From: Agarophyton chilense
Lineage: Eukaryota; Rhodophyta; Florideophyceae; Gracilariales; Gracilariaceae
Assembly (NCBI GenBank): GCA_030374765.1
Contig: JARGXX010000004.1
Coordinates: 558,001-622,000, forward strand
DNA length: 64,000 nucleotides
Direction of reading: 5' to 3'
The stretch's first letter is position 1. Every line of letters begins with the position of its first letter. The position numbers and the translations under genes were made by a program. Shown here in pieces: positions 11,245 through 59,361 of the stretch. A model generated the notes under the pieces. It saw only the letters and a list, made by a program, of their open reading frames with translations, made no database searches and was not told where the DNA came from.

Positions 11245-11878
11245 TGTCGTATAGTGGCGGAAGGGCTGACCTTTGAGGTTGTTAATATACTGCACTGACC
11301 CTGTAGGTGATAAGTGCGAGGGATCATCGGCCATGCAGCTCCGGGCGAGCTACTATCTAGGTGTTGTCGTCCGCGTGTAGTGTTGACATGTACCTTCTGG
11401 TTGAGTAATTTTTAGTACTTGTAATTGTAACTATATTTATTTTAGTACAATAGTGGAGTGGCCACCTGGCACTGTAGCCAGTGCTGGCCAGGTCTCTGAC
11501 ACTAGGTCAGAGACCGTGCCTTGCTGGCACCTCCCGGGTGATCTGGAGAGTGCAGTCCACTGTATATAGGGAACTGCACCTCCCCCATCCTAATCTGATA
11601 AAGACAGGCACGACTTGGGTCACGACTATACCTTTTGGTTCATCGTTTCTCAACTACCACACAGGCTTTCCCGCACGTCGACGCCTACCATCGTTCACCT
11701 ACACGGTATAGGCTAGTTGCCCCGCCGTTTGCCCCTGCGGTTTTTCACGGTGCCCTGTTACCATCGAGGTTTACTACGTCCACCTTCTAAGGTTGAGCGT
11801 CAACACGCTCCCTACGGTTGAGCGTCACTACGCTCCCGAGACAAGACAGTATCATACCCCAGAGGTGATTGTACGACA
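11245..11878 (+). repeat. 5' LTR of Gyp-B
   Basis: Bounded by TGTCGTA...TACGACA. It contains a palindrome GGTCTCTGAC-ACTAG-GTCAGAGACC and, near the 3' end, two tandem hairpin units of the type GAGCGT...ACGCTC. Confidence 0.95.
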
Positions 11879-11881
11879 TTT

Positions 11882-11899
11882 TGGTCTTCCGACTTAGAA
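11882..11899 (+). other. Primer binding site of Gyp-B
   Basis: TGGTCTTCCGACTTAGAA, three bases after the LTR and one base different from the other elements' sites. Confidence 0.8.
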
Positions 11900-12025
11900 A
11901 GTATTTTTAGGTTTCGTCGTACCTTCACGGTTCACACAAGATTCCGAGAAGGATTGGACGCTCGTACATCTATCTGGTTTCAGGAAATCCCGCAAAGCAA
12001 TACAGGATACCACTATTGGTCACAA

Positions 12026-13966: not shown

Positions 13967-14214
13967 CGCGAGACCCCCAAACTGGAGGCCTCGTTTGCTG
14001 GTTTTGTCTCGCGACAGACCATTTGGCAAACAATTGCGCTAACTTACCTCCCGGGATGAGAGACCAGTTGATTCAGGCTCGCATGCAGAATCACCAACGC
14101 CTCTATGGTTCTTCAACGCAAGCACCAAATAGGTTCCAACCCCGTACACCGGTACAGGTCAATACCATCGAGGAAACACCAAACTTGGACTCCACCCCTC
14201 CCGTACAGGAGTGA
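13960..14214 (+). CDS. Gyp-B nucleocapsid-like zinc-knuckle ORF
   Basis: 84 residues in the -1 frame relative to gag. It holds one CCHC knuckle, CWFCLATDHLANNC (CX2CX4HX4C), expected to bind element RNA during packaging. The start ATG overlaps the gag stop (ATGGTAA), so it could be made by -1 frameshifting or by termination-reinitiation. It ends at 14214, just before the protease frame, which is again -1. Confidence 0.75.
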   Translation: MVTRDPQTGGLVCWFCLATDHLANNCANLPPGMRDQLIQARMQNHQRLYGSSTQAPNRFQPRTPVQVNTIEETPNLDSTPPVQE

Positions 14215-14225
14215 AACACCGAGCA

Positions 14226-17200
14226 ATGGGCGTAATGGCCGAACCCAGCTTGCAATCGGAAGGCCAATCGATACCCAGAACCTTGAAGGTGGAAGAGAAC
14301 ACGTCACAACCAGTTCCGGTTTGTCATATGAAGTACAACAACTATAAAGTACGTGCTTCAATGTGTTTCTCTCATCGCCTTGCGGTTCCGGTCACCTGCT
14401 TGTTGGATACGGGGGCCGGCCCAAACATGCTGAACTCCCGCGTCATACCTGAGGCGGTACTTCGGAACTTGAGCCAACCTCCCGACAACAACCCGCTGGT
14501 GGACGCAAATGAGCGCCCATTAAACCTTCGAGGTATGCTCACCACTGTGGTGCAGCTCGGACACCCCAAGGTAAGAATGTAATTCTTTGATGTCGACCGT
14601 TTACCGACAGACTGCCTACTAGGTACGAACTTCATTGACAGACATGTCAAAGCAATCCTTCCTGGTTCCCATACCGTCGCCCTACGTCACGGGGGACGAA
14701 TTGCCATTCTAGGTAATACGGAAACCAAACGGGGATGGTTCATCAAACCGAAGAAGAGGATATCCAACGAAACGGTCTCCAACAAAGTGCGCATTACCCA
14801 ACAGGTTGTTATCCCGCCAACGCACCAAATATTGTTACCGGTGTCGTGTGCGACCCCGGGGCTGGTCATACTACAAAACCATCCGAGGATAGGACATCGA
14901 CACCTCACCTTGATGGCCAACGGGATTGTCGACAACATCCCAAATCAACCCTTTAAGGTGTGTCTCAGCAACTTCAGCAGTCATGACGTGAAGTTGCCGA
15001 AAAATACCAATGTTGGCATCGCACTACCGGCACCACAAGGGGTCTTCACCGTAGCTCACACTGATCTCGGCGAGGTCGCCCTCGATAAGGAAGGGGGGTG
15101 CGCAAATGCGTCCACAACCACAAAGGTATCGATAAATACCAACTTGGAAGCGAAAGTAACTGATAAGGCATCGGTAGACAAAGAAAAGAAACCGGACCCT
15201 GAGAGGCAATTGCAAGATACAGTCCAGATCGGTGAAGATAACGGCGAACTGCGGGGCCGTATTCTCGACCTTCTGGAGGAGTTTGAAACTATGTGGTCAG
15301 GCCATCTGGGCCAAATTAAGGCCACACATCATCGCATCGAGCTCCTCCCTGACTCGAAGCCGATTTACCAGCAACCATACCGAGCAGGTCCGAAGGCGAG
15401 AGAGATAGAACTCAAAGAAGTGGAGCGAATGCTCCAAGAAGGGGTAATTGAACCAGCCAATTCAGATTGGGCTAGTCCCGTGGTTCTGGTTCAAAAGAAA
15501 GAGGATAACCGTATGAGGTTCTGTGTGGACTACAGGAGGCTCAATAGCTTGACCATCAGGGATTCGTACCCAATACCTAGAATGGATGAGTGCATCGACT
15601 CCTTGGGAGATGCGCAGATATTTACCACGTTGGATGCCAATTGTGGTTATTGGCAGGTACCTATAGGTGAGAAAGATCGAGACAAACCGACCTTCACGTG
15701 CCATGCAGGTCTGTTTCACTTCACGCGGATGCCATTCGGGTTGCGCAATGCTCCAGCCACCTTTCAAAGGGCGCTGGACATCATCCTTTCGAAGTTTAAT
15801 TGGACAACCGCCTTGGTATACATCGATGATGTGATCATCTATTACAGATCGGTAGAAGAGCATTTTGCACACGTACGCACCGTACTAACCCTCCTAGCTG
15901 AGGCGGGGGTGACGCTGAAGCTACGCAAATGCGTCTTCTTTACCAGAACAGTTGAATACCTGGGACACACCATAGGCCCTGGTACCCTAGAGGTTGCGCC
16001 AAGCAACATTAGAGCCGTACAGGAGGTCAAGTTGCCACGATCCCAGACAGACCTACGATCCTTTATAGGTTTATGTAACGTCTATCGTCGCTTCGTGAAG
16101 GGATTCGCGAAAATAGCGGCTCCTCTCAACAAGAAGCTCCAGAAAGTTGAACCTGAACGGTTTGAGAATCTATCGAACGAAGAAATGGACACCTTTGAGG
16201 AATTGAAACGAGCGCTGTTGTCGCCGCCAATCTTAGCGTTACCGAAAACAGGTCTACCATACACGCTGGATACAGATCCATCCCATGCCCAAATTGGTTG
16301 TTGTCTCATGCAGGAGCAGCACAACGGAGACAAATTACCTATAGGATACCGAAGCCGCGCTATGAATGAGGCGGAGCAGAACTGCACGGTAACCGAGAAG
16401 GAATGTCTAGCAGTAGTGTGGAGCATGTTGATGCTCCGTCCATACCTGTATGGTGAGCGCTTTACGTTGCGCACGGACCACGACGCCTTAAGGTGAATCC
16501 TTGGACTCGTACATGCGTCTGGTAGACTTTCCCGTGAGAGGTTGAGAATGTCGGAGTTTGAATACGACGTACAGTACCGTCCAGGTATCAAACATAACAT
16601 AGCTGACGCTATGTCACGCTTAAACACCTCAGGGTTAGAGACAGAACCGGTGAACGATGATATCCCTTGCTTTTTGGTTTCATCAAACCAAAATGAAACC
16701 GGCGAACACCTAGAAGGATGTTGGGACTTCTCTGAAGAAGTTGCCTTGCGGAACACCGACATGGCAACGCAGATACTGACCCTAGAGGAAACGAACGTCA
16801 TGCCCGTAGTCCGAGAGGAATTTCTACGAAATCAGGCCCAGGATGCGTACTGCAGAACCCTGGCTGACCAAATTGGTTTCAAAGGATCACCGTTCGATGT
16901 GGACCACAATGGGTACATCGTGAGAAGGTCAACCTTGGATGGTAGCCTTCAAAAGGTAGTTCTGAAGGCACTGCGCCCGTGAGTCTTGTATCTCGCGCAC
17001 TACCCGCGACTATCGGGATACCCCGGTGCCACCAGGATGTATTACACCTTGAGGCGACAGTTCCATTGGCCTCATATGGCCCATGATATCTATACCTTTG
17101 TAGGTCAATGCGAATCTTGTGTTCGTACCCGCGGTGGTATTCCAAAGCATCGAAAGTACCTCAAGCTGTTTCTAGCAGCGGATCCGCTGGAGTTTGTTGC

Positions 17201-18521
17201 GATAGACCCTCTAGGACCACTTCCCAAAACCAAGAATGGGTATCAGCACATTTTAGTGATCACCTACAGGTTCTCGAAGCTCACGAGAGCGATACCTTTA
17301 AAGGAGACGAAGTCAACCACGCTGGCGATCGCGTTACTCAACAATTGGGTCTACCCGTACGGTGCACCACTGTACCTACTTACCAATAATGGTTCAAACT
17401 TGTCATCGAAGTTCTTCGAAGCAGTCTGTAACCTCTTGGATATCAAGCACTATTTCAATACTGCCTACCACCCGCAGACGACCGAACAGGTCAAGCGCTT
17501 TAACCACACTTTGGTATCGAGGCCACGACACTATACTGAAGAGCACCAAACTGGGTGGGATGAGCTGATGCAACCACTCACCTACTCCTATAACCTTCAG
17601 GTACACCGGTCAACGCATACTACTCCCTTTGATTTGGTTCTTTCGCGACACCCCCCAGGTATTGTAGTGCAGGGAGATCATACCACCAGCACTGCAACTG
17701 GCGCACTGACCCCTGCCCAGGTCAAGCGGAATACCCTTGTGAGGTTGAGGAGGGCTCTCAAACATGCAGAGAGCCGCCTCACTGCAGCCCAAAAGCCGTA
17801 CAAGGCAGACTACGACCGTAGGGTAACCAAAGTGGTCTCTGTATCTTCGGGACAATCTGTCTACATAGACAACCCACCTTCAGGTAAGAGACCACGACCG
17901 GGTGATGAAGCAGACGATGAAGCTATTGAAAGAGATATCAATTCGAAGCTTCTACCCAAATCAGTGAGACCTTATAAGGTATTGAATGCATCAGACCACA
18001 CCGTTACGGTTGAACAAGATGTAATACCGAATACGATACCAATTGACCGTATTACAGTAGCACCTGAAACGGTTCAACATCGCATTGAGGCAGGCACCTC
18101 AGCCCGAGAGCCCAAAGCTGTAGCTCTGCGCACTCGACCCTCGGAGGACCCAACGCCAATCGAGGGGAACGATGACCGTGAACGTGATGATCCAGATTAC
18201 AAACCTCTAACAGGGACGGAAATTAAACCCCAAACGGTAACAGCGGGAGCTCCCGACCCGGCTCCCACACACGAAGCTTCCAACTCCGAGCATATGAACC
18301 CTCGATGTAGCGTTCCCACGAAAGATCAGGACCAAACCACAGAGGAAATTCCAGTTGACCGTCTGGTGGGCCACACGCGAACCTACAATGGTCTGAAATA
18401 CACTGTCAGGGGGTACGGCTGGGGCCCAAAAGGGGACACCCTCGAACCCCCAGCCGCAATACCCCCACACTTCCGTATTAGGTAATGGCGCCGTCGCAAG
18501 GAGCCGATGCCTGCAGACGGC
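14226..18521 (+). pseudogene. Gyp-B pol: protease, RT, RNase H, integrase, chromodomain
   Basis: One reading frame with stops at about 14580, 16494 (TGA at the Trp of DHDALRW), 16981 (TGA at a likely Arg) and 18483 (TAA at a Tyr of the chromodomain tail). Domains: protease LLDTGAGPNML (about 14403); RT with FCVDYRRLN and catalytic YIDD (about 15820); RNase H with TLDTDPSHAQ; zinc-binding H2C2 region with CESCVRTR, where the second His is Tyr (SGYPG); integrase core near 17185-17520. The integrase first Asp (VAID) is present, but the second Asp is Asn (LLTNNG) and the catalytic Glu is Lys (QVKRFN). A degenerate chromodomain lies at about 18355-18500. RT looks intact and integrase looks dead. 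Confidence 0.9.
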
Positions 18522-33306: not shown

Positions 33307-36300
33307 TCAAACGCTCTCGGAAGCAAAGTTGCCAACTTCACCTATCGCAGAGGACATCCCTGATGAAAAAGCTTTTCTGTCGTCGCGGATCAATGCTTGC
33401 ACACCGTGTTTGAACAGGTGCAAGTTCGTCCGAACAATTTTCGCAGCTTCATCGGCGAAATCTTCGAGGGGCACGTCCGAAATGTCATCCCCAAACGGAT
33501 TTGATAATTCTTCTGACCATTTTGCGGTTCCAACCACCCCATAGGAAATGAACACAATCCACAAAATCGTCAACCAGCCGCTTGACTCAACTAAGCCAAG
33601 AGGTAACAACAAAAGCCAGATCACCATGAAGATTTTAAGGTGTTGGACGTATCCAAAAGGCATCGGAATTTTGATAATCTCTTCAGCTTCGGTTGCTTCG
33701 TTCTTCAAATAGTAAAGATACCACATAATACACCAATGTTCGTCAAAGCTAGCAGGGTCGAAAACATCTTCAGATACGCGCCAGTAATCACCCCTTGTAA
33801 TGTAATGGTGCAACACATCAAGGCAGTAGTCAGCATGGTCCGGCGCCTTCATCAGCTGATTTGTGTCTTCTTCGCTCAGGAGCTTTCTGTAGGCTTCTCG
33901 TGATTCAACATTCCGGAGTCTGCACATGAGTCCCACGGAAAACGCAGCAATGTGTGCCGCAATTCGCTCCAAGTCCTTCTCGTGCCATTCGTTTCCACGA
34001 TAACTTTCAAAAAACCTGTTAGCGAGCAATCGCGTGTGCCCCAAAATATTGGTCCAAACTTGTACGCCTTTCACGTAGCGCCCATGACTTTCGTACAACC
34101 AGAAGCCCAGTAGAAGGAACAAGGCAAAGCCGACGTACTCCTGGACTGCGCTGTCAACAGCAATTCTTGAGCAAAACCATACCGTACAATTCATCTCCAC
34201 TTCGCCGTCAAAAGGAAATTCTCTTGAAATCACCCAAGCAACTACGACCGCTAATGCAGTCCAGATGAGAATTCCGGCAGTCTGCAGTGGTGAGAATGTG
34301 CACCTGGCCAGGCTCAATATTTGTCTGAAGCTTAGTGAATTGGTTTGCCTCTTCACGTCCACAACCCAATCTTCAGACGAATCTTCCCAAAATGATTCGA
34401 TAGCAGAAGGACGCACGAATTCAGTTCCTTTCCCTGTATAGTTTTTCTGCACGAACACAATGTCGGCGACAGTTTTGTTGGCCATGCTATTCAGATCCAA
34501 GTCATTCAAGTCCGTTCCGAATGGGAATTGCAATTCTCTGGCAATTTGGTACATGCTGTGCCGGATGTTAGTTTTTCATGCCACACATTGCGAAAAAGAA
34601 GAATGATACTTACCCTAGGACTCCATACGCAATGATTGGCACCCACAAAATGGTAAACCATCCTACAAGGGTAAATAACGTGGAGTGTCAGTGGAGAACT
34701 GCTGTGAAAGCATTGGATGTGGTTGCACGTACCTGAAAACTCTGCGAGAGCAAAAGGCAGAACCAAAAACCATAGTCCTAAAAAGCTTTTCAACAAAACA
34801 AGGAATCCAGGTGCAATTTCGAAAGATCGCAAAAATTTTGAATGCCGAATGACCTTTTCAAGCTCAATGATCTCATATTTCACAAAGGAAGTCCTGCTCC
34901 CGTATGTTACCGGAACACTTATTTGCTCTTTGTGACACATAAAGAACAGATAGTACGACCGAATGACGTCGACACAATGACTGACCATGCTGTCGGCGCA
35001 TTGAATTCTTGCGATATCTGAGAAAGACAACAACCCCTTGACTTCCCTCAAATCCCTTGAATTTCGGAGCTCGCTCTTCAGAACCAGAGGAATAGCCGCC
35101 ACATGAGCGAGAACCCTTGTTACATCTCCATCGTGAATTGTTCCTTCTGAAAAGAGCGTCTGGAATTGCACTGCGATAGAATGACACGACGAACGAAGGC
35201 GAGCACCCCAGACGCTTCCGGCCGCAATATACCTGATAAACGCCGCTTGAACAAAAAACCCGAGAAGCATAAAGGCAGCGAAAGAGACGTACGTGGCCAC
35301 CGTAGTGTCTACACTAAATCGTGACCGCCACCATCTGCTAATCATAGCCTCGTCTCGGGCAAGATAGGATATGAGTGTCGCTACTACAGTCCAAACCGTG
35401 ACGTAAAGTAGTATCCACCAGGGGACGGACTGCAGCAGATGCGAGAAGAGCGTGGGCTTTGCTTTGTCAGGTTCGGGTCCCTTGAAGGACAGTGCAGGTT
35501 CTTCCCCAAATTGGGGGCCACTATTCTTCTTTTTGAGAAAGTGGGCCAGATTGTATTCACTACTAACCCCTCCATCACCGAGGACACATCCAAGAGTCGG
35601 ATCGGATTCGGTTCTTTCCTCTCGGATGAGCTGTCTGGGGCCCCAGCCAACGCTCTCGACAGCCTGAACGACTGAGCTTGCGGCGTGAGCGCACATGTTT
35701 TCAAAAGGAATATCAATGGAGTCCCTCCCGTATGGATCTACAAGCTTCGCAGCAATCTCCTCCAGCCCGAGAACACCAAACGAAATCAGTGGTGCCCATA
35801 GAATCGTGTAAAATCCTGTAGAGGGTGTCATTGCGAGTGGCAGAAGAAGAAGCCAAAGCACCGTGAAAAGGTGTTGGTGCTGCGTGTAGCTCGCTATGAC
35901 TGGAAAGCGTTTAACACCAATGGCACGCGAAATTGTTTCACGAATCGATTTCACCCTACCCAACATAGTGCCCACGACTCCACCGGGAATACGATTTGGT
36001 GCGATGTGGGAATGGCCATCCCGAAAGTTGGAATCTTGGAGAAGAAGGTAAGCTTCTATTGTATGCAGCAGATGATGAACTGGGAATTGTTCCGAGAGCA
36101 TTGCGCGGCGATCCTCTTCTGAAAGGAGGCCTACGTCTTCCTCAGTCTGGTACTCATCCATGAGCAACAGAGTGTCGCGGAAACAGAGAGGCACTTGGGT
36201 GATATGTGCCACAATTCGTTCTTTGTCGTTTTTGTGGAAGAAACCATCGCTCAGACATTGCACGAATTCTACCGCCAAGTGACGAAGATTCATCTCCATG

Positions 36301-39054
36301 TCAAAGATCAACATGGCACCATCTTCGTACCTGCCAATGGCATCAGAAGCCCGGAAACTGAGAATCATGAACAATGCAAATCCAATGTTCGCCAGCACCG
36401 AAACTTGAACGTCAATTGGACTACACCAAGCGCCACATACTTTTCTCTTTGCTTCGCTCCAGGTGAGTGAAAGTAGATACGAAGAAACTGAAGCGATTAC
36501 AGCCCACGCAGTAACGACTGCCATACCCCTTACGGAAACAGACGGAAGGGAGTCGAATACTTTCGATATCAATCCTGGTAGTGACGGTTCAGGATCGTCC
36601 TTCTTTGCTCGGAAAGTCTCCCAGAGCCTTTTGAAAAAACCTTGTGTGACTGCTTTGGCCGAGGCGGACTGGGGTTCTCGCATAAGGCGAGACTTGAAAT
36701 CTCCACGAGAGTATTCAGACTCTCGGACAAATGATAAGGTTCCATTTCGATTGGCGTAGTAAACGTTGTGCACTGAGGATCGAATTTCGTCGCACAGCAT
36801 ATCGAGAGGAACATCTTCCTTGTCAAACCCAAAAGGATCCGAAAGGTTGGTGCCAATCGCAATGAGATTGATAATTGAATATGTGATGGGTACGATGTAT
36901 ATGAACGCCGTAAATCCAGAAAACTGAACAAGGGATAGTGGAAGGAGGGCTAACCAGAAAAAAGTAAAAATCTTCAAGTGAACGGTGAACGACTCGGAAA
37001 TCGGAAACTTTTGAAGAGCAACACACTCGGCAATAGTCGCTTCCAGATCCCACATGGTGTACACCATATTGTAGATACTGCCATTTACGGGACAAGTAGG
37101 AACTTGAGTGAGTTCAGCATGCGCACAATCCGCAGTATTCAAGTACCCGAAAATCACGTCGATGCCATGTGCAAATGGATTATCGGCCTCATTGAATGCA
37201 GCTACATCATCAGCACAAAGTAAATCCTGCAGTTCACTTGTATCTCTGCTCGCCCGCAGTGTCATCTTGGCGGCAATTCCAAGAGCCGCTAGATGAGAGA
37301 ACAAGCGTTCTCGATCTCTCTCATGCCACATTCCCTTCCTGCAAACAGTACTGAATTGAAATGCTAATTCTTCAATGCATACTTTGACCTTACTCTGCCA
37401 CAATTGAAGAGCTCTCCAATAGCGTCCATACGCGTTGCTCAGCCAGAAACCAAGGGTCAAAAAGATGCCCAGACTGACGTAAGAGGTAATCGACGAGTCA
37501 ACTGGGATGTAGATGCACCACCATCTGCATGAACTTTCCTCGTCAGCGTCCCTAACACTTCGCGTGAAGAAAATGACGAAAGCGCTCCACCCAGTTGCAA
37601 CCAGAAGGTAAAGAAGAGTACCTTTGCTGAGCTTGCTGAAGCGCAGAGTAACAAAATTTGAAAGGAAAGTTTTTCGAGCGGGTTTTTCCATTACTGCAGG
37701 TTGCAATGGATGTTCGAGCCATGTAGGAGTATCATGGTCTGTCCTGATGACAGATTCGAAGTCCAACTTGTCTTTGAAATGGGCATCGAGAACCGTAAGC
37801 GATGCCTCCGCTGCGAGGTGGTTGAGCTTCACGTCTTGCATGTCAAAGCCAAAGGGATCCATTAGCGCTTCACCAATAGTGAACAGCATTCCCACCCCAT
37901 AAGTAGTCAGAACAGCCCAAAGAATTGTGAACCTGCGAAATAAACAAATCGAAGAGTGGTGCAAATCAGATAGGTTAATTAGTATTTGTGACGAGATGAG
38001 ACCCAATGTTGCTAGAATCAACTTACCATCCGCTGCTTTGAACGAGCGCCAGAGGGAGAAAAAACATCCAGATGTACAAAAAGATCTGTAAGTGAGCGAC
38101 ATATCCGAGCGACGGGCTAGTTCGCGCAATCTTAACAAGATCGTTCGCGCGATAATCCACGGCATCCACGAGGTCAATGGCAAAATAACGAATACCCCAT
38201 CCAGCAGGGGTCTCATCCGCCGATATATGAGAGAATCCGTATCCATCATCCTCTGAAGAGCTAATATACGCCCTGACGACTCTCATACAGTGGTTGTGCA
38301 TAAGGTCGGCTTTGATGACGTCATCAATGTCTTTTTCATGCAAAATGCCTTCGAGTTGCTTCCGTTCACGTTCATCGCGGAGTGTCATCTTTAAGGCGAT
38401 TGGGTATGCAATAAGATGTGAGGCAATACGAGATATATCACCTTCGTGCCATGTGCCAGGAGGATAGTTCTGCCTCACCTGGCGAGCAAGCTGGCGAAGC
38501 AATCCACCAACTTTAACCCAATCTAACTGCGCCTCCCAATAGCGGTTGGAAGCCTCGCGAATGAAAAAGCCAAGTAAAACAAACAACGCCCAGCCCACAC
38601 CGTACGAAACGGAGGAGGATACCGAAAGGCGTGACGTCCAATAGTCAGTGCTAAACCAGTCCCCGTCCTTGTCTGCCAGGCCGTACGCAATAAGAGTGAC
38701 AATAGTGCTCCACACAAGCTCAAAGGCGAGAATAGAGTACGGAATGGTTAGAAGGACTGAACGGAAGGGAGAGCTCTCGGCCTGGCTGCGTTCGATTGGG
38801 CCAGAACCCAGTTCGCCACTGATTGCTGCGCTTCGGAGTCGAAGAGCGATGGCTCGATGTTCAAACAACTTATAGCCGAGACCTTCGGCTGGAGGCTCGC
38901 GGTTTGACGACCCTGACGCCATCTGCTGTGCGGAGAAAGATGATGAACGCGATTCTTGACCGTTTTCTTTTGTTGGAACGTCTGGGACGCGAAGCGCGTC
39001 GGGATTTTCCGCGGCAGTACCATGGGATATGACTTGCTCGTCGGATTTGTTCAT
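33307..39054 (-). CDS. Protein with five tandem bestrophin domains (predicted anion channel), four exons
   Basis: Predicted chloride/bicarbonate channel of the bestrophin (RFP-TM, PF01062) family. Exons: 39054-38027, 37932-34733, 34662-34614, 34555-33307. They splice at GT-AG sites to exactly 1842 codons (1841 residues). A cytosolic Ser/Glu-rich N terminus (about 1-95) precedes five repeats of about 350 residues. Each repeat has a long hydrophobic helix pair, an (N/G/I)RY motif (R161, R513, R877, R1243, R1575), an H-x-x-D helix start (H193, H546, H909, H1276, H1587), a hydrophobic helix pair ending near S-(S/G)-G-(W/F) and the family's calcium-clasp-like motif (DPFG 368, DPFG 708, DPYG 1075, FPFG 1436, NPFG 1788, each followed by D-x-x-D). 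Ordinary bestrophins have one such domain and assemble as pentamers. The first in-frame ATG was chosen as start. No stop or frameshift is present, unlike all neighbours. Location (plasma membrane or organelle) cannot be told. Confidence 0.88.
34556..34613 (-). other. Intron 3 of the five-bestrophin gene
   Basis: 58 bp, GTAAGT...GGCACAG, phase 2. It defines a 49-bp exon 3, and removing it joins AYGVLG to MYQIARELQFPFG in frame. Confidence 0.85.
34663..34732 (-). other. Intron 2 of the five-bestrophin gene
   Basis: 70 bp, GTACGT...TTGTAG, phase 1, splitting the Gly codon of FSGW in repeat 4. Removing it restores the FSGWFTILW text seen in the sister repeats. Confidence 0.85.
37933..38026 (-). 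other. Intron 1 of the five-bestrophin gene
   Basis: 94 bp, GTAAGT...TTTCGCAG, phase 2, splitting the Trp codon of SSGW in repeat 1. Confidence 0.85.
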
Positions 39055-45287: not shown

Positions 45288-45709
45288 TGGCTATGGAGGG
45301 CCGTCGCCGTATGTACCGTCCCTACACGGTGCCTCCACAAGGAGGTTTTAAGAACGGGAAACCCGGATGGGTGGATACTCGCACGGCATACCGTTCACAA
45401 CCTATGTTGACCAACCGTCGTGACGGTTTGATATGTTATTCATGTTATGGAAAACACCATTTGAGTGCAGAATGCACGCTTCCTGCAAAGGATCTGAGTC
45501 GTATCATGACGAATTATGAAGCACTCTCAGAAGGGGAAAGAAGCCGCGTACCGGCGGGCATGTATTGGAAAGCCAAAAGTTGGTTTTCTCAGACACCCAT
45601 GCGCCGGACGTACAAGCCGGTTGCTCAGAATGCTGAAGTGTCACAACCCGGAACCCCGGTAGGAAGAGGTGCCTTTGAGGCGAATCAGCCGGTGCAACCG
45701 GAAAACTAA
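45287..45709 (+). CDS. Gyp-E nucleocapsid-like zinc-knuckle ORF
   Basis: 140 residues in the -1 frame relative to gag. Its ATG shares the A of the gag stop (TAATG, 45285-45289). The knuckle is CYSCYGKHHLSAEC (CX2CX4HX4C). The protease frame, again -1, is open through its 3' end. GGAAAAC just before the stop (45700-45706) is a possible slip site, but not a canonical one. Confidence 0.75.
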   Translation: MAMEGRRRMYRPYTVPPQGGFKNGKPGWVDTRTAYRSQPMLTNRRDGLICYSCYGKHHLSAECTLPAKDLSRIMTNYEALSEGERSRVPAGMYWKAKSWFSQTPMRRTYKPVAQNAEVSQPGTPVGRGAFEANQPVQPEN

Positions 45710-48700
45710 GTGAGGGAGCCCCTAGGGGGTCGGCACTAGTCGATCCCGTAGTGCTGACCAGGGAGAGCTCGCCTCCCTGCTCCCGCGCTTGGAAGCCCAA
45801 GATTCTCTTGAGGCCTCACAAATTTCCGCCGTACGGAATCAATCCGCCGGACGGAAAGCGAGTACAGTTTGACTGTGAGTTACATCGTTCTTGGAGACGT
45901 TATACATACCCGTCAAAACGGGAACGTTACCTCATGGTAGTGTCTAAAAGAATCTATAAGGTCTATGCCGACATCGGCTCTTACAGGAATCTGTTATCTC
46001 TTCGATTGAATATCCTGGACACAGGTGCTGGTCCGAACTTTATACGGGAATCGGAGCTCGCTCCTGCTGACTTAGAACGTATTCGATACGGTCTTTTACC
46101 GGACATCCGGGATGCCAACAAAAATGTTGTGGAGACACTGGGAACAGTTCGACTCGTGGTGCGTTTGGGACGCTTTGTAGTCCTAGTCGACTTCACCGTA
46201 TGTAAGACGTTAGCTGCACCAGTGGTACTGGGATGTGATTATTGCGACAAGTTTGTCGAAGCCATTCGCCCGCGAAGAAAACTAGTGGAACTAGATGATG
46301 GATCAATGGTACCAATTGTTTGCAAGCCAATGCGTCGTTGCCCCGAAGCACCTCCACTTCCACCATCTATGGAATACGGGAAATCCAGAGGACGTGTCTC
46401 GCCGAGGATTCGAGTAGCGAAGAGTGCCATGCTCAAGGCGCAACCCCAAACTTGGGTTCAAGTAAGAACAGAACGACATGGACTCGCGGTAATTCAACCG
46501 AATACTCGGGTGTACGAATCCCGTGGATTGCTAGTCGCTAACGGCATTGTTCAGGTTGATCCTGGTAGCCCCTTTTGGATACTAGTGAGTAACTTCACCG
46601 ATAACGATTATCAGATACCGAAGAATCAGGTTGTTGCAACAGCTTTGCCTCATCCCACAGTGGTGGTCCCTACTCATATTTCTACTGCAGAAGTATTGGG
46701 ATTAACCCATGTCGGTGACACAGAGGAAGAACTGCAAACTCCGTCTGGAGATCAGTTGCAAATGGAAAAGGATCCAGAGAGCCTGGTCGATGAGCTACAC
46801 TTAGCACATGTGTCGGAACACTACAGAACGAAGATCAGGTCTATGCTGAAGAAGTATACAGCCATTTGGACTGGAAAACTAGGAGAGATCTCCGCTACGG
46901 AATACCACATTGATTTGGTCCCAGGGTCACAACCCATCTCCCAATCACCCTACAGAGCGGGACCGCGAACTCGCCAAATCGAGGAGGAGAATGTCAGCAA
47001 AATGTGGGAAGAAGGAGTAATCGAAGCAGCTCAATCTGCTTGGGCCTTACCAGTGGTGCTGGTCCCAAAACCTGATGGTTCTTTACGATTCTGTATCGAT
47101 TATCGAAAACTGAACGCAGTTACAGTTCGGGATACATACCCGTTGCCTCGAATGGACGAATGTATTGACAGCGTAGGAGAAGCGAACGTTTTCACCACGT
47201 TGGACGCCAACTCTGGCTATTGGCAGGTGCCTGTAGCGGAAGAAGACCAAGACAAAACCGCATTTGCGTGTCACGCCGGTCCCTACCGTTTCAAAAGGAT
47301 GCCCTTTGGCTTAACGAATGCACCGGCTACTTTCCAGCGTACTCTGGACATCTTGCTCTCAAGATACAAGTGGAAGACTTGTTTAGTCTATTTGGACGAT
47401 GTGATCATCTTTTCCCAGGATGTGAAAAGCCATTTACGGCATATAGAGAAGATCCTCAAAGCACTACAGAGCGCAGGTATCACCTTGAAGTTCAAGAAAT
47501 GCGAATGGTTCGCTGCCACCGTCTGGTACTTAGGACACGTGATCAAACCGGTACAGCTTGCCATTCAAGAGGCACAAACAGCGGCTCTCCGCGAAGTACA
47601 ACCTCCGTCGACACAGAAGCAATTGCGTTCTTTCCTCGGCTTGTGCAACGTCTACCGACGATTCGTGCAGCGAAACTTGCATATAGCGGCACGGCTCAAC
47701 GCAAAGCTGCGTAAAGGACAACCAGTACAGCTGGAACAATTCAGACAAGCTGAAGTGGAAGCGTTCGACACGCTGAAGACAAAGATTATTACAGCCCCAG
47801 TCTTGGCGCTGCCCATCCCCAACCTGCCATACTCAGTGGATACCGACTCTAGCGAGTACCAAGTAGGGTGTGCCCTTTTTCAAACACACCCTGATGGTGA
47901 AGTATTCAGTTTCAGAAAAAGAATGCCTTGCAGTCGTTTGGGCTCTAACCACATTGCGACCGTATCTCCAAGGAGAACGTTTTACCGTCAACACGGATCA
48001 TTCGTCTCTACGATGGTTACTGTCCATTACAGACCCGTCTGGTCGTCTCACACGATGGCGCTAACGCCTTTCTGAATTCGATTTCGAAGTGAAGTATAAG
48101 AAGGGACTGGACAATGTCCAAGCTGACGCGCTATCGCGACTCAAAACACTGGGCGAAACCCAAGGCGAAATCGATGAGGAGATACGTTGCTTCTACATGG
48201 AGACCCATTCACCATCTTTTGAAGAAGAAGAACAAGAGACCCTTGATGATTATTCGGATGCAGACCCGTTCCTTGCATTAGCAGACACTGACCCTTTAGT
48301 TCAACTCGAGCGAATCTCGTGCACTGAGCTCCTCAATGAGCAACACGCCGATACGTTTTGTGCGTCGATACGCTCTCGTCTTAACGGGGGGTAGGAGCTC
48401 CCCTTTTTACTCGATTCACGAGGAATACTGTTAAGACATGTCGAAAAGCATGATCAAATCGTGATTCCACACGTCTTGAAGAGTCGAGTACTCCATCTGG
48501 CACACTACAGCAGGCTGTCTGGTCATCCAGGAGTAAGGAAGTTGTTCATGACTCTAAGAAGAGATTTTAACTGGCCTGCTTTGGCAATGGAATGCCATGC
48601 TACAGTGAGGTTGTTTACAACATGGGCGAAGAATCACATGAAGCTTCACAGGAAGCGGAAACCGATGACGTTGTTCCAGGCGAAAGCGCCTTTACAATAC

Positions 48701-50479
48701 GTCAGTATCGACATCCTAGAGGAATTGATTCGCTCAAGGAGAGGTTATCGCTACCTATTGGTAATCACCGACCGCTTCTCGAAGCTAGTGCGGACTGTGC
48801 CACTGAAGCGGATAACCGCAACCGTAATCGCACAGGCGTTTATCAAAAATTGGGTGTTTATATACGGACCACCAGAAGTTCTGTTATCAGATAATGGGAA
48901 GCAATTCGTTGCGAAGTTCTTTCAGAATGTTTGCCGCATTATGGGCATTCGAAACGTTTTTACCACGACCTATCATCCGCAATGCAACGGTCAGGTGGAG
49001 CGTTTCAACTGCACGCTGATAGCAGCATTACGACACTACATCGCGAACCACCCAAAAGAATGGGACATATTTACAGATACTATGTGCTACGCGTACAACA
49101 CACAAGTGCATACCTCTACAAAGATGGCACCGTTTGACGTCGTTCTCTCACGTAACCCTCCGGCTTTACCAGTTGCGCTCGACGACGAGACAGAATTGGA
49201 CGCGCCGACCCCAGCTAAGTACCATCTGAAATGGAGGAATGACCTGAAGGCCAGAGCGGAAGAAGCCGCTAAGGAGTTATCGAAGACGCAAGCTCGCTAT
49301 AAGCGAAACTATGACGCCAGAAGGCGAAGAGGAAATCCGGCAATCCGAGTAGGAGGTCACGTCTTCGTGCGAATCGAAAGACCTGACAAGCAGGAAGAAT
49401 CGCGTCATAAGTTGTTGCCGAGAGCGGCTGGACCCTTCAAAGTGGTGAACCTTGATGAAGACACAGTGGTCATCAAGACAGGTGAGGACGTTGAACGTGT
49501 TTCGCGCGATCATGTTGAAGTCGCGCCTGACCCGCAAGTGGAAGTCCAGGTATCTGGTAGAACTAAGGAGGCAAGTGCGACTGAACGTTAAGGCAAAAGC
49601 CCAAGTGACTCTGGGGAGAGTGAACCGCCACCAATGGCTAGAGCGGAGGAGAAAGCTCCTGATCATCCACCGCCGGCGGTTGCATACGCCAATCACGGAC
49701 AGCTTCCGAGATATCGGGATATGCCCCGTGGCACGCGCCCACCCGAAAGTACATAAATGGAACCTCAAAGCATGAAAGATGTTTTGGACTTTGGCCCCAA
49801 GGACTTGGAAACGGGTGCACGCGAAAACGCGCTGTTGCCGCTTCAGGCTGAACCCTCAGGTGAAGCGCCACTCGCTGTTCCGCCGATATCGGCTCCCATC
49901 CCTCGTGGGCAGGAAGAAGAAGAGGTATCGCCTCTTGTCTTGGTGCAAGCACCATCGTCCACCGAACAGCGGTCAGAATCGGATAAACCGAAGGAAGTTC
50001 ATCCCCGAATGGAATTGAGAAGTAGCAAGAAGTGCGCTTCTATGGAACCTGAAAAACAGGATAGCTCTTTATCTGAGAAAGGTTCTCAAGGAATGAGTAC
50101 ACTGCCCCTGCGGGCAGAACGACAGTTAGTCGACGAGCGAACGCTTAGCGACGCTGAGACTGCTAACACAGAAACGCTTTGGTCAGCCCTAAGGCATTTC
50201 AAACCTGGTAACAGGAGTCTCGAGCCAACAGCAAAAGCATTGGGAAACGCCCAGGAATATGCTATGGATCGCATATGTGAACATGGCGAGCATGAAGATA
50301 TTAGAGAATTACTGTATCGAGTCCGTTGGTACGGTTTTCCTCAGGAAGCGGATATGTGGGAACCTATAGCTCATATCCCCCGTTCGCAACTCGTGCGATA
50401 TCATCGACGCATGCGATTACCACTCCCCAGGGAGATCGACTCCTCGATAGTCGGGCTCATGGGCACATCCCATTTATAA
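45710..50479 (+). pseudogene. Gyp-E pol: protease to chromodomain
   Basis: Protease ILDTGAGPNFI (about 46010); RT with FCIDYRKLN and YLDD (about 47390); RNase H TVDTDSSEYQ-type motif reading SVDTDSSEYQ. Near 47895 a short deletion removes roughly 20 codons before [13 protein letters not shown] and shifts the frame. After that, one frame runs to the end with stops at about 48064, 48393, 49591 and 49755. Integrase VSID, LSDNG and QVERFN are all intact, but the H2C2 Cys pair is lost (LFTTWAKNH where Gyp-D has FCTDCARNR). The chromodomain YRVRWYGFPQEADMWEP lies at about 50315-50370. This is the best-preserved pol of the four. Confidence 0.9.
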
Positions 50480-50779: not shown

Positions 50780-52606
50780 TCAAAGAGACGTGCGAGCACG
50801 CAGGTTCGCAAGAAGCTGTGCGCGATCACCCTCAACTTGGTCCACGGGAAAGCCCGCATCTAAGAGGAACTGCCTCAGCGGATCCAAGCCTGGGTCTTCG
50901 ACTGGCACTGCACTCGGTTGTTGGGTAAACCCATGAACGTACTCTTGAGCAACTCCCGCCGCTGCGGATTGATCGAGGGAAGTCGCTACGCCTGCCAGCT
51001 CTGGCTCATCCTCGTAACCGAGTTCAGCCTCAGCTCCCGGCGCTTCCTCATACGGTTCCTCTCCGTTCTCGGATGGAGTAGCATCGTACACGTATCCAGT
51101 GGGCTGGTTCGGTGGCATGTCACGTGGGTTCTCCCGAAGAAAGCGAGCCTGCTCGGAGGTGACCAACTGGCGCGTCCAGGGGTCGTACCAAACGAAATCT
51201 CCAGCACTTGCTGCTCGTCCAGGAGAATGGTCGTAATGTCTTGCACGGGTTCGGAGAGCGGATTGATCAGCTGGCACTCCAGACCAATCGACACTGTCGA
51301 TCAAATCCACAAGATGGAGGAAGTCGGCATGGTTCGCACGGGATCCCAGGACAAGGGAAAGATCGAGTTCTCTCGCATACTTTCGCGCTGTGGGCAACAT
51401 GTACCAAACTCTAAAGGTATCATAAGCCTCCCACAGGAGGAAGACGGCCATCTTGGCGATAAACTCGTTATAAACCACCGTGTAATATCCCGAGAACGGG
51501 TCGTTAACCAACGCGGACCCGATGTAGGAGATCGCCGGTGGGAGCCCCACAGGGAAACCACGAGGACTCTCGATCGCCGCCCAATGCTCCGGAATACCGA
51601 TGTAGCGCCCGAAGCGCGCGTTCCGCCGGATGCGGTCAATCTCGATCATTTGATACGGCACCAAATAGCCCAAACGTGATCGAGTACGACGTTCCCAACG
51701 GGGATAATACCAATAGGGAATGTCACGCTTTCGAAGGAAGAAGAACTCTGCACGGAGAAGAGGTTGCTGAAAGCAGAGAGCTGCATCACGCACACCGCGC
51801 ACACCGCGCCAACCGCTAATATCGACTTCAACGAGTGTCTCGATACACGAGTAACCTTCACCGTCGGTACGGGCTTTCCAGGTATCTAGTTGCCAGTCCT
51901 GTGGGAGGAGAACCGTACTGATGAATCGGTGAAGACGCTCGTAAATCAGCTTGGTGAACCGCGTACGGGCTTCAGACAAGGTTTCCGTTGAATATCGCGC
52001 AATCGCGTTGTCTGGCAAAGCAATATGGCTCGCCCAGTCGTCGCTATGAATCGCGTGTTCCGGAATACCGTCAGGGAAGTACGCACCGTGTACATACCGT
52101 TGTATCAACGCGTCATCGCGGATGGCAACTGGATCAAACCAGGGCGCTTGCGCGAAAAGTTCAACGTTGTCGAGAAGATCTCGTCCATAGAAATCCGCAG
52201 GGTGCGGGTAGCTCCGCTGAGCACGACGAGAAGGAGCTCGAATCACACCCGCAGAGGCGACGTAAGCCGCGTTCGGCATTGGAGCCACGGTTGGCTGAGG
52301 TAACGGTACCGACCGGAATCCGGTGTACGGTGTGGGGAACGAACGGTATGGACCGAGTCGAGCAGTAGGCTGCGACGCAAAACCAGAAGTGTTGGACGGA
52401 GCCCCAGAAGGCACATCCTCAGAGAAGGGCCAGAACGGGTTGGACCCGGCGTTCGGATCCATCGCGAGAGATCGAGCTGAAAAGCGGTGACGAACAGAAT
52501 GCTGTTGAGAACTGTAAGAGTTGGTCGGGCGGCGAGGAATTTGTGATGAAGATGAGCACCCGGAACACCGGTCCGACTGCGTATGAATGCTTCTTGTGTC
52601 CCCCAT
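50780..52606 (-). CDS. Gyp-E antisense ORF, intact, 608 residues
   Basis: Function unknown. ATG at 52606 (MGDTRSIHTQSDRCSGC), stop at 50780, no interruption. It lies on the opposite strand to gag-pol, between pol and the 3' LTR. Residues 1-150 are Ser/Pro/Arg-rich and probably disordered. About 155-480 form a globular, Trp/Tyr/Arg-rich core (WFDPVAIRDDALIQRYVHG, YPRWERRTRSRLGYLVPYQ, LLWEAYDTFRVWY, AGDFVWYDPW). An acidic stretch (about 500-560) is followed by a short C-terminal helical segment (RQFLLDAGFPVDQVEGD). It has no signal peptide, clear membrane helix, zinc finger or nuclease motif. Homologous to the Gyp-D antisense ORF. Confidence 0.72.
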   Translation of the reverse strand: MGDTRSIHTQSDRCSGCSSSSQIPRRPTNSYSSQQHSVRHRFSARSLAMDPNAGSNPFWPFSEDVPSGAPSNTSGFASQPTARLGPYRSFPTPYTGFRSVPLPQPTVAPMPNAAYVASAGVIRAPSRRAQRSYPHPADFYGRDLLDNVELFAQAPWFDPVAIRDDALIQRYVHGAYFPDGIPEHAIHSDDWASHIALPDNAIARYSTETLSEARTRFTKLIYERLHRFISTVLLPQDWQLDTWKARTDGEGYSCIETLVEVDISGWRGVRGVRDAALCFQQPLLRAEFFFLRKRDIPYWYYPRWERRTRSRLGYLVPYQMIEIDRIRRNARFGRYIGIPEHWAAIESPRGFPVGLPPAISYIGSALVNDPFSGYYTVVYNEFIAKMAVFLLWEAYDTFRVWYMLPTARKYARELDLSLVLGSRANHADFLHLVDLIDSVDWSGVPADQSALRTRARHYDHSPGRAASAGDFVWYDPWTRQLVTSEQARFLRENPRDMPPNQPTGYVYDATPSENGEEPYEEAPGAEAELGYEDEPELAGVATSLDQSAAAGVAQEYVHGFTQQPSAVPVEDPGLDPLRQFLLDAGFPVDQVEGDRAQLLANLRARTSL

Positions 52607-52630
52607 GGTTCCCGCTTAACGAGGGGGGTA

Positions 52631-54389: not shown

Positions 54390-57300
54390 CAAAGCCGTGA
54401 CAGTACGACGATGATACTGTACCGCCTTTGACCGAGGTAGGTGCTCTATCGGTTCGTCTGAATCCCAATCGGGGCCGTACCCGTACCAACGGACCAAGTA
54501 TTGGAGTACCCCTTCGGGTGGTAGGAGTGCTCCAAAATGCGTCCGACCACGAACTCTTGTCAGTACACTTCCCGGCCATCCCGTATGACGGTGTCGCTAT
54601 TTCCGGTTGGTACCCGTCCTGAGCAGGGGGTACCGAAGTGATCACGCGTCGGGCGGCTTCGCTCCGGTCGGACCGTGTAGCGCGCAAGGCAGTCATCGGC
54701 TGAGTAGAATGTCGACCCGACTTCGGCGGTTCATTTTCTCCAAGGGCCGGGTTTGTTTCGGCGCTTCCCACTCCGGTTGGAGGGCCCACACCAGCGGGTA
54801 ACACGGGTGGTCGTTCCGCTAATCGGCGTGGTGAAGCTCGCTTCGGCGGTGATATTGGCTTGGGCGGTGGTGCATTGTCGCACCTCTCTGTCCCACGGCG
54901 AGGTTCCGTGTAGTCACGTGAGGGTTCCAATGGCTGGCTGTCCGGCTTCGGTGCCGTGGATGTATGCGCCTCCCTGTGCGGGGTACTTGGCGGTGCGTCG
55001 TCTACTCGTACTGTATCAGGCTGCGGTGCGTCGAGCACACTGGCATTCCGTGTTGCACGTGTGGTGACACCTCGGCGAGTGTTGGTGGCGTTATCCGCAG
55101 CTGCGTTCTGAGGCTTAGATAGCGACTGCGTCGAGTCTTGCCGGACGTCGGAATCAGGCACCCCTAGTGGGCGAAGAATGACACGCGACGGTGCGGCGTT
55201 TCCAGGGACGGTATCGACCGGATTACGACGGCTGTCGGGCGCCTCCCCCTCTTTAGACGATGCACCGGAGTTGGTGTCCGTCGGGTGGACTGGGGAGCAG
55301 CGACGAATGCGCCACACGATTCCTTGCGGAATGGGCGCCGCGGGTAGGGGAAGGTCAGACAAACCCCGAGATGGGTGTGGTAACGCGTAGGGACGCGGGT
55401 GGACCTGAGGTAAGAGGGTCGATGAATCCGTTTCAACGGGAGCAGTCACACCAGTAGGTTGGGATATTAACGGCGGAGTAGCCGATACCACGCGATCGCG
55501 GGAGATGCGTTCGTGATTACCAGCTAGGCCAACAACGACAGTGTCGGAAGCCACCTAAATAACCCGAAAGGGGCCGTCGGCAACGGGTGACAGCTTGTGG
55601 CGTTTCTCCTTCTCTGGGTTCCAATACTCCTTGCGGATGAATACATGACCGTCAGGGGCGAGACGTGGCGGCGATTGAGGGGCTTTGATATCAAAGTCAC
55701 GCTTGTAAGCGGCCTGGGCTCGGCCCATTGAACGTCGTGTGGCTGGAACGAGCTTCGTGAGCCAAGTTTTTCACGCTTCGCTGTAAGCAGTCGGTGACGT
55801 AAAAGTATCCGGCGTGGGCTGTGGTTCCAGCGCCACAGGCGGTGGGGTATGGGACAGTACCAGCTCGAAGGGCGTTAATCCAGTTGTCCTGTGCACTTGC
55901 GTATTGTACGCAAAAGTGAGCGCATCAGTGAACAAGTCCCAATCTTTGGGGTGGTCTGCAACGTATGAACGGAGTGTCGCAAGTAATGTCCGGTTGAACT
56001 GGTTGGCCTGCCCATTAGTTTGGGGGTGGTAAGTGGTCGTGAACAGGTTCTTAATGTCCAAGATGCGACATACATCCTCGAAGAAACGAGAGGCAAACTG
56101 TCTCCCGTTATCAGAGAGGAGGTTGACCGGTGGACCGTAGACGAAGACCCAGTGTAGGACGAAGGCTTGAGCCACGCTCAGAACGGAGATCTTCCGTAGC
56201 GGTACGGTCCGGACCAGCTTTGAGAAGCGATCCGTAATTACGAGTAAGAACTTGTAATTCCGCTTAGTGGTAAGGAAGGGACCGAGTATATCGATGGCCA
56301 CAAACTCCAATGGAGCGCAAGCTGGAAACAGTTTCAACTACGTCGTATGACGGCGGAGTTTGACACGGTTTCGAGCGCAATCGGTACAAAACCGCACCGT
56401 TGCGTAGCAGTCCACTGCCATGGCAGGCCAGTAGAAGTTACGGCGTAGGGTGAGGTAAAGTTTCCGTCCTCCGACGTGGCCACTCAGTTTGGAGTAGTGC
56501 GACATCTGCAATACTCTCGACTGGAGGTTATGTGGTACCACGATTTGTGTGTGCGATCCGACGGTCCGTAAAAGGTATACGGCGTCATTCACCTGAAAGG
56601 GGAGAGTACCTCCTCCATTGAGTTGAGCGCGGACCTTCACGCAGAACCGGTCAGCGTATTGCTCCCGTATCATCTCCTCTGGAGTGATAGGCACGAATTT
56701 CCCTGGTAAGGGTTTCTCGGAATCTTCCGAGAGAAGAAAGTCGTCCAATTCGGAACCGGAATCTGAACAGTCCGTGTCTCGTTCCTCGTCCTCGATGGCA
56801 GCGTCGTCGCCATTCACTGCAAAGCAGGGTATTTCATCGTCTTTGACGGGTAGTGCTTCGCCAGTAGTGACCAGGCGGGAGAGAGCATCGGCTTGGGTGT
56901 TGCACGATCCTTTTCGGTACTGCACGTGAAAGTCAAATTCCGCTAGACGGAGACGCCAACGCAACATGCGCCCTTAAGGCTCCGAGATGGAGCGTAGCCA
57001 TCGAAGTGATTCGTGGTCTGTAAAAACGGTGAAATGATTACCCATGAGATAGGGGCGCAACGTTTGTAATGCCCAGACTACTGCAAGGCATTCATTATCC
57101 GAGACGGAGTAATTCTTCTCGTGGACGTTGAGCGATCGACACCAGTACCCTACGGGGCGTCTTTCCCCAATGGGTGCAGTTTGAAACAGTGCACAACCTA
57201 CTTGGTAGTCGCTGGCGTCCGTATCTACGGTGTAGGGCCTTCCAGGCTTGGGCACCGAGAGGATCGGGGCGGCGACGACAGAATCCTTACGAAAGTTGAA

Positions 57301-59361
57301 AGATTCCGTTCGAACGGGGGTTAAGGGGTCCAGTTTTGGTGCTTGGCCTTTCGGCAAAAGCGCGTTTAACGGTGCAGCCTTGTCCGCAGAGTGCGGGATG
57401 AATCGTCGGTAGACGTTTTCGAGTCCCAGAAAGGAACGAAGCTCGGTTTGCGTCCGCGGTTCTTTAGCCTCTTTGAGTGACTTAACACGAGTCTCCTCGA
57501 TTGTAACACGTCCTGGACGGATAATATGGTCGAGATACTTCACGGTGTACGTTAAGAAGCCACATTTCTTCAACTTAAGAGTGACACCCGCATCTCGAAG
57601 CGTGGTCATTATATCCCTCACATGAGTGAGGTGTTTGTCAAGATTATCTGAGAAGACGATTATGTCATCCAGGTAGATCAGGAAGGTACGCCATTTGAAG
57701 CGGGCCAATAGGATGTCGATGGCTCGCTGGAAAGTAGCGGGGGCGTTGGTAAGACCAAAAGGCATCCGTTTGAAACGGTAGAGACCGGAGTGACCCGCGA
57801 AAGCGGTTTTATTTTGGTCTTTCTTCCTTACTGGAACTTGCCAGCATCCCCAATTGGCGTCCAGGGTTGTTAAGACGGTGGCGGTGCCCAGCGAGTCAAT
57901 GTACTCGTCCATTCTTGGGATTGGATACACGTCCTTGACCGTGACGGCATTCAACCGACGGTAGTCGACGCAAAACCTCCAGGAACCATCCTGCTTTGGA
58001 GCCAGTACTACTGTAGAAGCCCACGGCGACTGAGCCGGTTCAATGACTCCTGCTCGAAGCATTTTATCCACTTGCGCCATTTCCCCCGCGCGTGCGGCGG
58101 GTCCGGCACGGTATGGGTGCTGAGAGATGGGTTTGGTGTCCGGTAGCCAATCAATCCGGTGTTCCGTAGTGGCAATCTCACCAAGGGAGCCCTCCCACAT
58201 AGTGGTGAAGTCCCTCAAGAGTTCTCACAATCGATGGCGGTGGGACTCCGGGACGTGGCTGAGATCCAGGTTCTCGAGTTCTTGGACTGGATCGGGGCGG
58301 TCACCACTCGTTGAAACGGGCTGCGTCCCTGATGTTACAGGTTGAACCCCGGGTACCGGTGATGAAACGGGTTCCGGGCTGTCCCCCTCCCTAGAGTGAA
58401 CGAGTCCGAGAACGTCGGCTGCGGTCAGCTTTGTCGGCACCATAGCGATGGGGTGCGGCATGACGGACCCTATCAATTGGTTCTTCACCAGATACTGGGG
58501 TACAGTCCCTAGATTGGCGATCAGCACGTGAGACGGTTGGTTTGGCTCCACATGGACGATTCCATTCGCAATTGTGAGGCTGTTCCTGTCATTCAGTGAC
58601 GACAACGGTTGCAAGACCCGGAGTCCGTGTTGACGAGAGGTTACTTTCACCATCATTTGGGACTCAGGCGGGACGCAAAACGACGCTGCGATGCGGAGCT
58701 TATTAGATTCACGGTTATCCGGTCCAGGTTCTTGTGCTGCCGGTAGCGGGACCTGCTTCTTCGTGGCACGCCTAAGCGGACGACGAACGATCGGAGTGGA
58801 CGATCCATCCTCCATCTCGACACGCCGTTGGCAGGGGAAGATCGCTTCGACGAAGCGGTCGCAAAAGTCGCAACCTAAGATGACTGGGGCGGCTAATTTC
58901 CGACATACGACGAAGTCGAGTTTCACCACACGAGCGCCAACGCCGACTACCAGTTCTATGAACCCCACCGTATCCTACGGTTGGTTGTTCGCGTCAGCGA
59001 CCTCCGGGACGTGGTCGCGGCGGATCCTAGATTGCAATGCAGGCGGTAACACTTCCTCCACGACAAAGTTCGGACTGTCACCGGTGTCTAAGACGGTAAG
59101 GTGTCGCACCATAAACTGGGGTTAAAGGCCAAGGTCAGCATAGACCTTGTAGTTTCTCATGGTCATCACCAGAACTATATTCTGGAACCGGTTATGGGAA
59201 TCACGTTTCCACGGACGACGCAGAACACTAAAGTGTTCCGAGTTTACGTCATTGAAGGCCTCTTTCCTTGAAAGGATTTTCACCGGGGAGCGAGGCTTGG
59301 ACGCCTCGGGCGCCGTCGACCTCGACTCTGAGGGCGCCCCTCCTTGAAAGGAGACTCCCAC
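54390..59361 (-). pseudogene. Gyp-D pol: protease to chromodomain, one frame with repeated stops
   Basis: A single frame from 59361 to about 54600 carries stops at about 59122, 58970, 58225, 56974, 56338, 55771 and 55555, with no frameshift until the end. Domains: protease LDTGDSPNFV, where the usual Ala of DTGA is Asp (about 59090); RT with FCVDYRRLN and intact YLDD (about 57680); RNase H with TVDTDASDYQ and TDHESLRW; H2C2 with CTDCARNR (about 56390); integrase with VAID, LSDNG and the Glu position changed to Asn (QANQFN). A Pro/Ser/Thr-rich linker follows. The chromodomain YLVRWYGYGPDWDSDEP lies in another frame near 54490-54400. Confidence 0.9.

Follow-up and report, generated by a model that had tools for sequence, protein, structure and literature searches.

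The stretch of DNA considered here (the window, 64,000 nucleotides) comes from the red alga Agarophyton chilense, a member of the Florideophyceae in the order Gracilariales. On its minus strand, from 39054 to 33307, lies a gene whose four exons, once three GT-AG introns are spliced out, deliver a frame of 1841 amino acids with a single stop at its end. Exon 1 (38027..39054) opens with the start codon (39054-39052) and encodes an N-terminal tail and most of a first domain, within which intron 1 (37933..38026) falls. Exon 2 (34733..37932) completes that domain and encodes domains 2 and 3 and most of domain 4. Introns 2 (34663..34732) and 3 (34556..34613), both within domain 4, flank exon 3 (34614..34662), a piece of domain 4 that is 49 nt long. 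Exon 4 (33307..34555) supplies the end of domain 4, domain 5 and the stop codon. The inner exon borders are reproduced by an independent spliced alignment, made with our own script, whose sole input was the Gracilariopsis chorda protein P0003. The splicing and this alignment together bear out the three GT-AG introns and the stop-free frame of 1841 residues that a first-pass annotation of this DNA had claimed.

The encoded chain has a computed mass of 208 kDa. Its N-terminus, inspected by eye, displays no clear targeting peptide, and a hydropathy count of its membrane helices returns 35 fragments, a broken-up output. By eye again, introns 1 (in domain 1, at 38026) and 2 (in domain 4, at 34732) are seen to cut a homologous SGW motif, 4 nt apart and in different phases.

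The neighborhood of the gene holds retrotransposon remains, which flank it at window positions 2659-5103, 11822-18485, 45679-49591 and 56974-58224. One of their frames carries a Pfam RVT_2 domain, and several carry RVT_1, RNase H or integrase domains. Frames without such a domain match, at 11822-13966 and 48395-49591, are counted as retrotransposon by position and by eye. A 611-aa open frame at 50780-52615, on the minus strand, has no match in Pfam.

The chain itself is built from five bestrophin domains. Pfam finds in it five stretches of the family PF25539 (Bestrophin_2), with an E value for the whole protein of 6.6e-162. Chance is excluded as the source of these matches, because each of the five pieces, submitted alone, clears the PF25539 cut-off of 27 bits, with scores of 100.6-137.8 bits and E values from 1.5e-28 to 6.8e-40. 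The five repeats proposed in the first pass are therefore real, but the family on which it had based its domain-count test, PF01062, is not the one that matches. At E <= 0.01, PF01062 appears neither in the whole protein nor in any of its five pieces; a search of the genome with PF01062 returned no matches, but neither did its controls. Indeed, PF25539 is the sole Pfam match at E <= 0.01 in the 1841 residues. The protein thus has no rhodopsin domain, and it is not a bestrhodopsin.

All five domains lie on the minus strand, and each displays the landmarks of the family: a hydrophobic pore neck on the second membrane helix, an RY motif, and a clasp loop. Domain 1 (D1, 37773..38745, residues 104-396, split by intron 1) has its neck at W155/V159/F163, its RY arginine at R171, and the clasp DPFGFDMQD beginning at 368. 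In D2 (36750..37628, residues 445-737) the corresponding features are L497/L501/F505, R513, and DPFGFDKED at 708. D3 (35655..36539, residues 808-1102) has F861/M865/F869, R877, and DPYGRDSID at 1075. D4 (34438..35426, residues 1179-1465, split by introns 2 and 3) has F1227/M1231/F1235, R1243, and FPFGTDLND at 1436. Last comes D5 (33400..34287, residues 1516-1811), with F1569/L1573/F1577, R1585, and NPFGDDISD at 1778. Three of the ten motif positions given in the first pass were off by 10. Its RY arginines R513, R877 and R1243 were right, while those placed at 161 and 1575 are correctly R171 and R1585; its clasp starts at 368, 708, 1075 and 1436 stand, and the fifth moves from 1788 to 1778.

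Pairwise identity among the five domains is low, at 27-34%. Between the ends of the profile matches lie linkers of approximately 48, 70, 76 and 50 residues. When the window gene is compared with its homolog in Gracilaria domingensis, these linkers are 46-64% identical, versus 70-80% for the domains. Linker parts are alike by position in most of nine full-length genes, inspected by eye: an HDTPxWLE-like stretch follows D1, and an SVPWW-like stretch precedes D4. By the same inspection, every domain, D5 included, is followed by a stretch of two hydrophobic residues and an arginine (VIR, FVR, LIR, FVR and LIR, in order), which looks like a tail shared by the domains.

The neck deserves a closer look. 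In bestrophins, the neck is formed by three hydrophobic residues from each protomer, I62/I66/F70 in KpBest (excerpts of PMC9253114). Alignment places such a three-residue hydrophobic neck in all five domains of the window protein. The residues are specific to position. In the first ring, across nine full-length genes, D1 has Trp (9/9), D2 has Leu (9/9), and Phe is found in D3 (7/9), D4 (8/9) and D5 (9/9). When partial relatives are added, the ring 1 Trp of D1 is found in 14/14 ungapped rows and the Leu of D2 in 34/36. Phe occupies the third ring in 44/45 domains of this nine-gene set. Of the 174 domain rows in the family, 144 have hydrophobic residues at the three sites, 22 contain a residue outside the hydrophobic list, and 8 are gapped. 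The exceptions are mainly Thr in ring 2 of D4, where Thr is the commonest residue (12/29 ungapped rows); the paralog L014 contributes another, a Lys in D5. Measured against 262 windows, the number as conserved as the neck helix is 15 for D1, 1 for D2, 4 for D3, 15 for D5, and 74 for D4. By this measure the neck helix ranks high in D1, D2, D3 and D5, but its conservation in D4 is unremarkable.

The clasp is likewise retained. A loop of the PFGxDxxD type is present in every domain of the window gene, again with residues specific to position. Among the domains of the nine full-length genes, 44/45 have its acidic pair, as do 156 of the 174 rows overall. In human Best1, the Ca2+ clasp includes P297, F298, G299 and D304 (excerpts of PMC6591409). 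The acidic pair is no proof that Ca2+ is bound or exerts control, however, since two cyanobacterial bestrophins have the pair too. The residue at the cytosolic aperture varies across the family, at a place where the alignment of the loop is unsure; variability at this site is also described for bestrophins generally (excerpts of PMC9253114).

Columns that are poorly conserved in one domain but conserved in its four companions number 0/24 for D1, 1/26 for D2, 1/31 for D3, 1/29 for D4 and 0/25 for D5. Mean conservation for D1 to D5 is 0.54, 0.49, 0.51, 0.54 and 0.47, slightly lowest in D5. Were the five domains arranged in an open arc, one face each of D1 and D5 would lack a partner. The unrelaxed condition of these end domains would fit a closed ring, without proving one.

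The genome of A. chilense (79.8 Mb, 135 contigs) contains more genes of this kind. A family search returned at least 30 PF25539 matches in at least seven places, and a second search, with a query of single-domain length, returned the identical seven loci; because the best candidates were scored, these and the following gene counts are lower bounds. At least five of the genes have five domains: the window gene, L011 (1828 aa), L012 (1794 aa), L013 (1805 aa) and L014 (1826 aa). All five, 1794-1841 aa long, are open from start to stop and have five domain matches each. Thus, every multi-domain gene found in the genome (5/5) has exactly five domains, and among the matches listed there is no bestrophin gene with a number of domains other than five or one. 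At least two genes have a single domain, L015 (about 4108-5019) and L016 (about 3433-4883), both as incomplete gene models. The five-domain genes all have intron 1, and all have the 49-nt exon set between two introns; the four paralogs also have an additional intron in domain 4 that is absent from the window gene. Most diverged is L014 (G000:C75:228801-238700), approximately 34-36% identical to its relatives. It has lost the clasp motif of D3 and carries the Lys in the D5 neck ring mentioned above, with its frame still open at 1826 aa. Its function may have changed.

Three protein searches delivered at least 63 related proteins. Two of these searches scored the best 8000 candidates by shared words, and all three reach close relatives of approximately 200 to 3200 aa, so that distant fusions having a different number of domains would escape them. 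The relatives include a G. domingensis protein of 1859 aa that is 69% identical and a Gracilariopsis chorda protein of 1821 aa that is 62% identical; public databases list the two as "Bestrophin/UPF0187" and "hypothetical protein". Four of the 63 are genes of the A. chilense genome itself: P0001 is the window gene, P0004 is L012 (100% over 1280 residues), P0005 is L013 (98.4% over 1805), and P0006 is L011 (100% over 1656). The public model for P0005 omits 29 codons of domain 5, despite the open frame at L013, and P0004, P0006 and the G. domingensis proteins P0063, P0049 and P0051 also appear to be incomplete models.

Five position-specific profiles place the domains of all 63 relatives in a contiguous stretch of the order D1-D2-D3-D4-D5, although 59 are partial and bear on the order, not on the full count. 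The patterns are 12345 in 22 proteins, 45 in 23, 1234 in 12, 5 in four, 23 in one, and 123455 in one, where the model of that protein splits D5. Whole domains score approximately 1.6 to 3 times as high at their own position as at the next best; for the nine genes from which the profiles were built, four of them among the 63, the high scores arise partly by construction. Of the 23 proteins with the pattern 45, 21 start near position 50 or 250 of the D4 profile, where the paralogs have introns, as is expected of predictions made exon by exon. All five domains are whole in four relatives (P0002, P0003, P0007 and P0009); most of the remaining 12345 proteins retain just the end of D1. Thus, the search of related genomes for the same architecture that the first-pass annotation suggested does find it, with five whole domains in four database proteins and a consistent order in 63 of 63. 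Run against prokaryote genomes, the D5 alignment gave 15 pattern matches, none of which was confirmed.

A maximum-likelihood tree was built from 64 domains of 14 genes, together with the two single-domain genes and four bacterial sequences. The 14 genes were chosen by hand for having several whole domains, and the root as drawn is the midpoint. In this tree each of D1 to D5 forms one clade with a support of 100/100. The single-domain genes group with the bacterial sequences, outside the position clades (99/94), L015 on a long branch. The full support for one clade at each position implies that fusion to five is older than the divergence of the paralogs and that of the sampled species; no change in domain number since that fusion is seen among the sampled genes. 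A recent or artefactual tandem duplication is ruled out by the low identity between domains and by position clades that are older than the paralogs.

What would a protein with this architecture do? In human bestrophin structures, five protomers surround one pore, and C-terminal segments extend to the next protomers (excerpts of PMC9253114). This makes it plausible to join the C-terminus of one unit to the N-terminus of the next. The window protein is probably a single-chain bestrophin channel having pseudo-five-fold symmetry, with its domains around one pore. In such a channel, the five domains would pack side by side as do the five chains of ordinary bestrophins, joined head to tail via the linkers. 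The neck would be built from three stacked, uneven rings: W155-L497-F861-F1227-F1569, then V159-L501-M865-M1231-L1573, then F163-F505-F869-F1235-F1577. The five clasp loops would couple the binding of a ligand, perhaps Ca2+, to the opening of the neck. The fusion would fix the order and number of units; this, in turn, means that each position could specialize, with the neck and the cytosolic aperture becoming asymmetric. The ion carried may be Cl- or HCO3-, a guess from knowledge of the family.

One chain making one pore would account for both the fixed number five and the conserved residues specific to position. The recurrent count of five, the position clades, and the retained neck and clasp residues all support the one-chain pentameric channel predicted in the first pass; the closing of the ring is the part that we infer, and the chain most likely does close into one asymmetric pore. 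Beyond the single gene, it is probable, on the evidence of these sequences, that this is a natural family of pentameric ion channels made from one chain. Such a family would have had a single origin in red algae and would have retained exactly five positions since then, every one of them with conserved pore residues of its own, much as voltage-gated sodium channels have retained four.

A chain with five domains need not, of course, be one channel. Several chains might co-assemble, with domains from different chains sharing pores in domain-swapped or higher-order complexes. Engineered concatemers can assemble in unintended ways, and such an arrangement is compatible with the sequence. Linked subunits of the nicotinic acetylcholine receptor (nAChR) are the subject of a 2026 paper (PMC13287450, in excerpt). 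Free mixing would require no conserved five, however, and yet five is the number in all five genes here and in the four whole database proteins, with the other 59 relatives offering nothing against it. The end domains D1 and D5, moreover, have no relaxed columns, and co-assembly is accordingly unlikely. Still less likely is the cleavage of a polyprotein into five subunits that go on to assemble as a fixed heteropentamer. Other algae have polyproteins. The title of one reference also points to them, and the recurring hydrophobic-hydrophobic-Arg stretch, which follows even D5, might be read as a repeated processing site. Apart from that stretch, however, the linkers differ from one another, and parts of each recur at the same position across most of the nine full-length genes. 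Further, the modules known from polyproteins are near-identical, unlike the strongly different domains seen here.

It is harder still to credit a membrane scaffold or non-conducting relic having no pore. The unconserved aperture and the Lys in the D5 neck of L014 would suit such a protein, but the neck sites are hydrophobic and position-specific in most genes, and the clasp retains its acidic pair almost throughout the nine. Last, the gene model could be an artefact in which adjacent single bestrophin genes were joined through false introns. Here, the sole transcript-named protein seen, P0001, does end early. This protein (source name GEZJ01002761, like that of a transcript record), compared as protein rather than as DNA, is identical to the window protein over residues 1-1414. 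All three splice junctions are present in it, that of exon 1 included; the third, traced letter by letter, is in a shifted frame. It diverges after residue 1414 and stops at 1439 aa, upstream of domain 5. Among losses of 1-40 nt that were tried, solely a loss of 11 nt in exon 3 reproduces this end exactly. As the genome keeps this frame intact and all five five-domain genes have an exon 3 of 49 nt, we take the 11-nt loss to be either an assembly error or an allelic difference. False joining is refuted for domains 2 to 4, since a single intronless exon of 3200 nt encodes domains 2 and 3 and most of domain 4. The introns lie inside domains, none between them, and all five genes share intron 1 as well as the 49-nt exon between two introns, making an artefact almost certainly the wrong reading.

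The single-chain channel is best placed by comparison with known systems. Natural fusions with specialized positions exist in the four-in-one voltage-gated Na+ and Ca2+ channels and in the two-pore channels. These belong to an unrelated family, however, and are four-fold or two-fold, not five-fold. Bestrhodopsins have one bestrophin domain per chain. They are pentameric, according to the title of a paper, and resemble the window protein as giant algal channels with a fused bestrophin domain (PDB 7pl9, a match to the D5 profile with E 4.5e-22); they differ in having the rhodopsin domain that the window protein lacks. The best matches among solved structures are bacterial bestrophins of the KpBest type (PDB 4wd7, 4wd8, 5x87 and mutants). 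These have the hydrophobic neck at the I62/I66/F70 sites, but only one domain per chain, five identical chains, and, of the acidic pair in the clasp, the second residue alone. Vertebrate BEST1 and BEST2, as described in excerpts of PMC9253114 and PMC6591409, are homopentamers whose neck consists of I76/F80/F84 and whose Ca2+ clasp loop includes P297, F298, G299 and D304. They too have one domain per chain, and neither belongs to the set of 22 solved-structure sequences that match at E <= 0.001.

Among the open-licence PMC papers listed by full-text searches, we recognized none that describes a chain of several bestrophin domains or a natural five-in-one channel, and none pairs bestrophin with Gracilaria. 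The phrase "bestrophin domains" in PMC11638005 concerns, in the excerpt at hand, models of the green algal bestrophin BST4. Thus, judged by its sequence, the window protein is a bestrophin, new by its architecture.

Should the single-chain reading be correct, it would mean that fusion, with specialization of the separate positions, is possible for a five-fold channel. It would also provide a covalently fixed bestrophin whose neck, aperture or clasp sites could be mutated singly. The stoichiometry of gating would then become directly testable, something that is hard with five identical chains carrying equal sites. The red algal genes would offer an evolutionary series for such work, with single-domain relatives included in the same genome. 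As a minor observation, all 30 PF25539 matches in the seven places lie on the strand called minus, which is probably chance or the orientation of the contigs.
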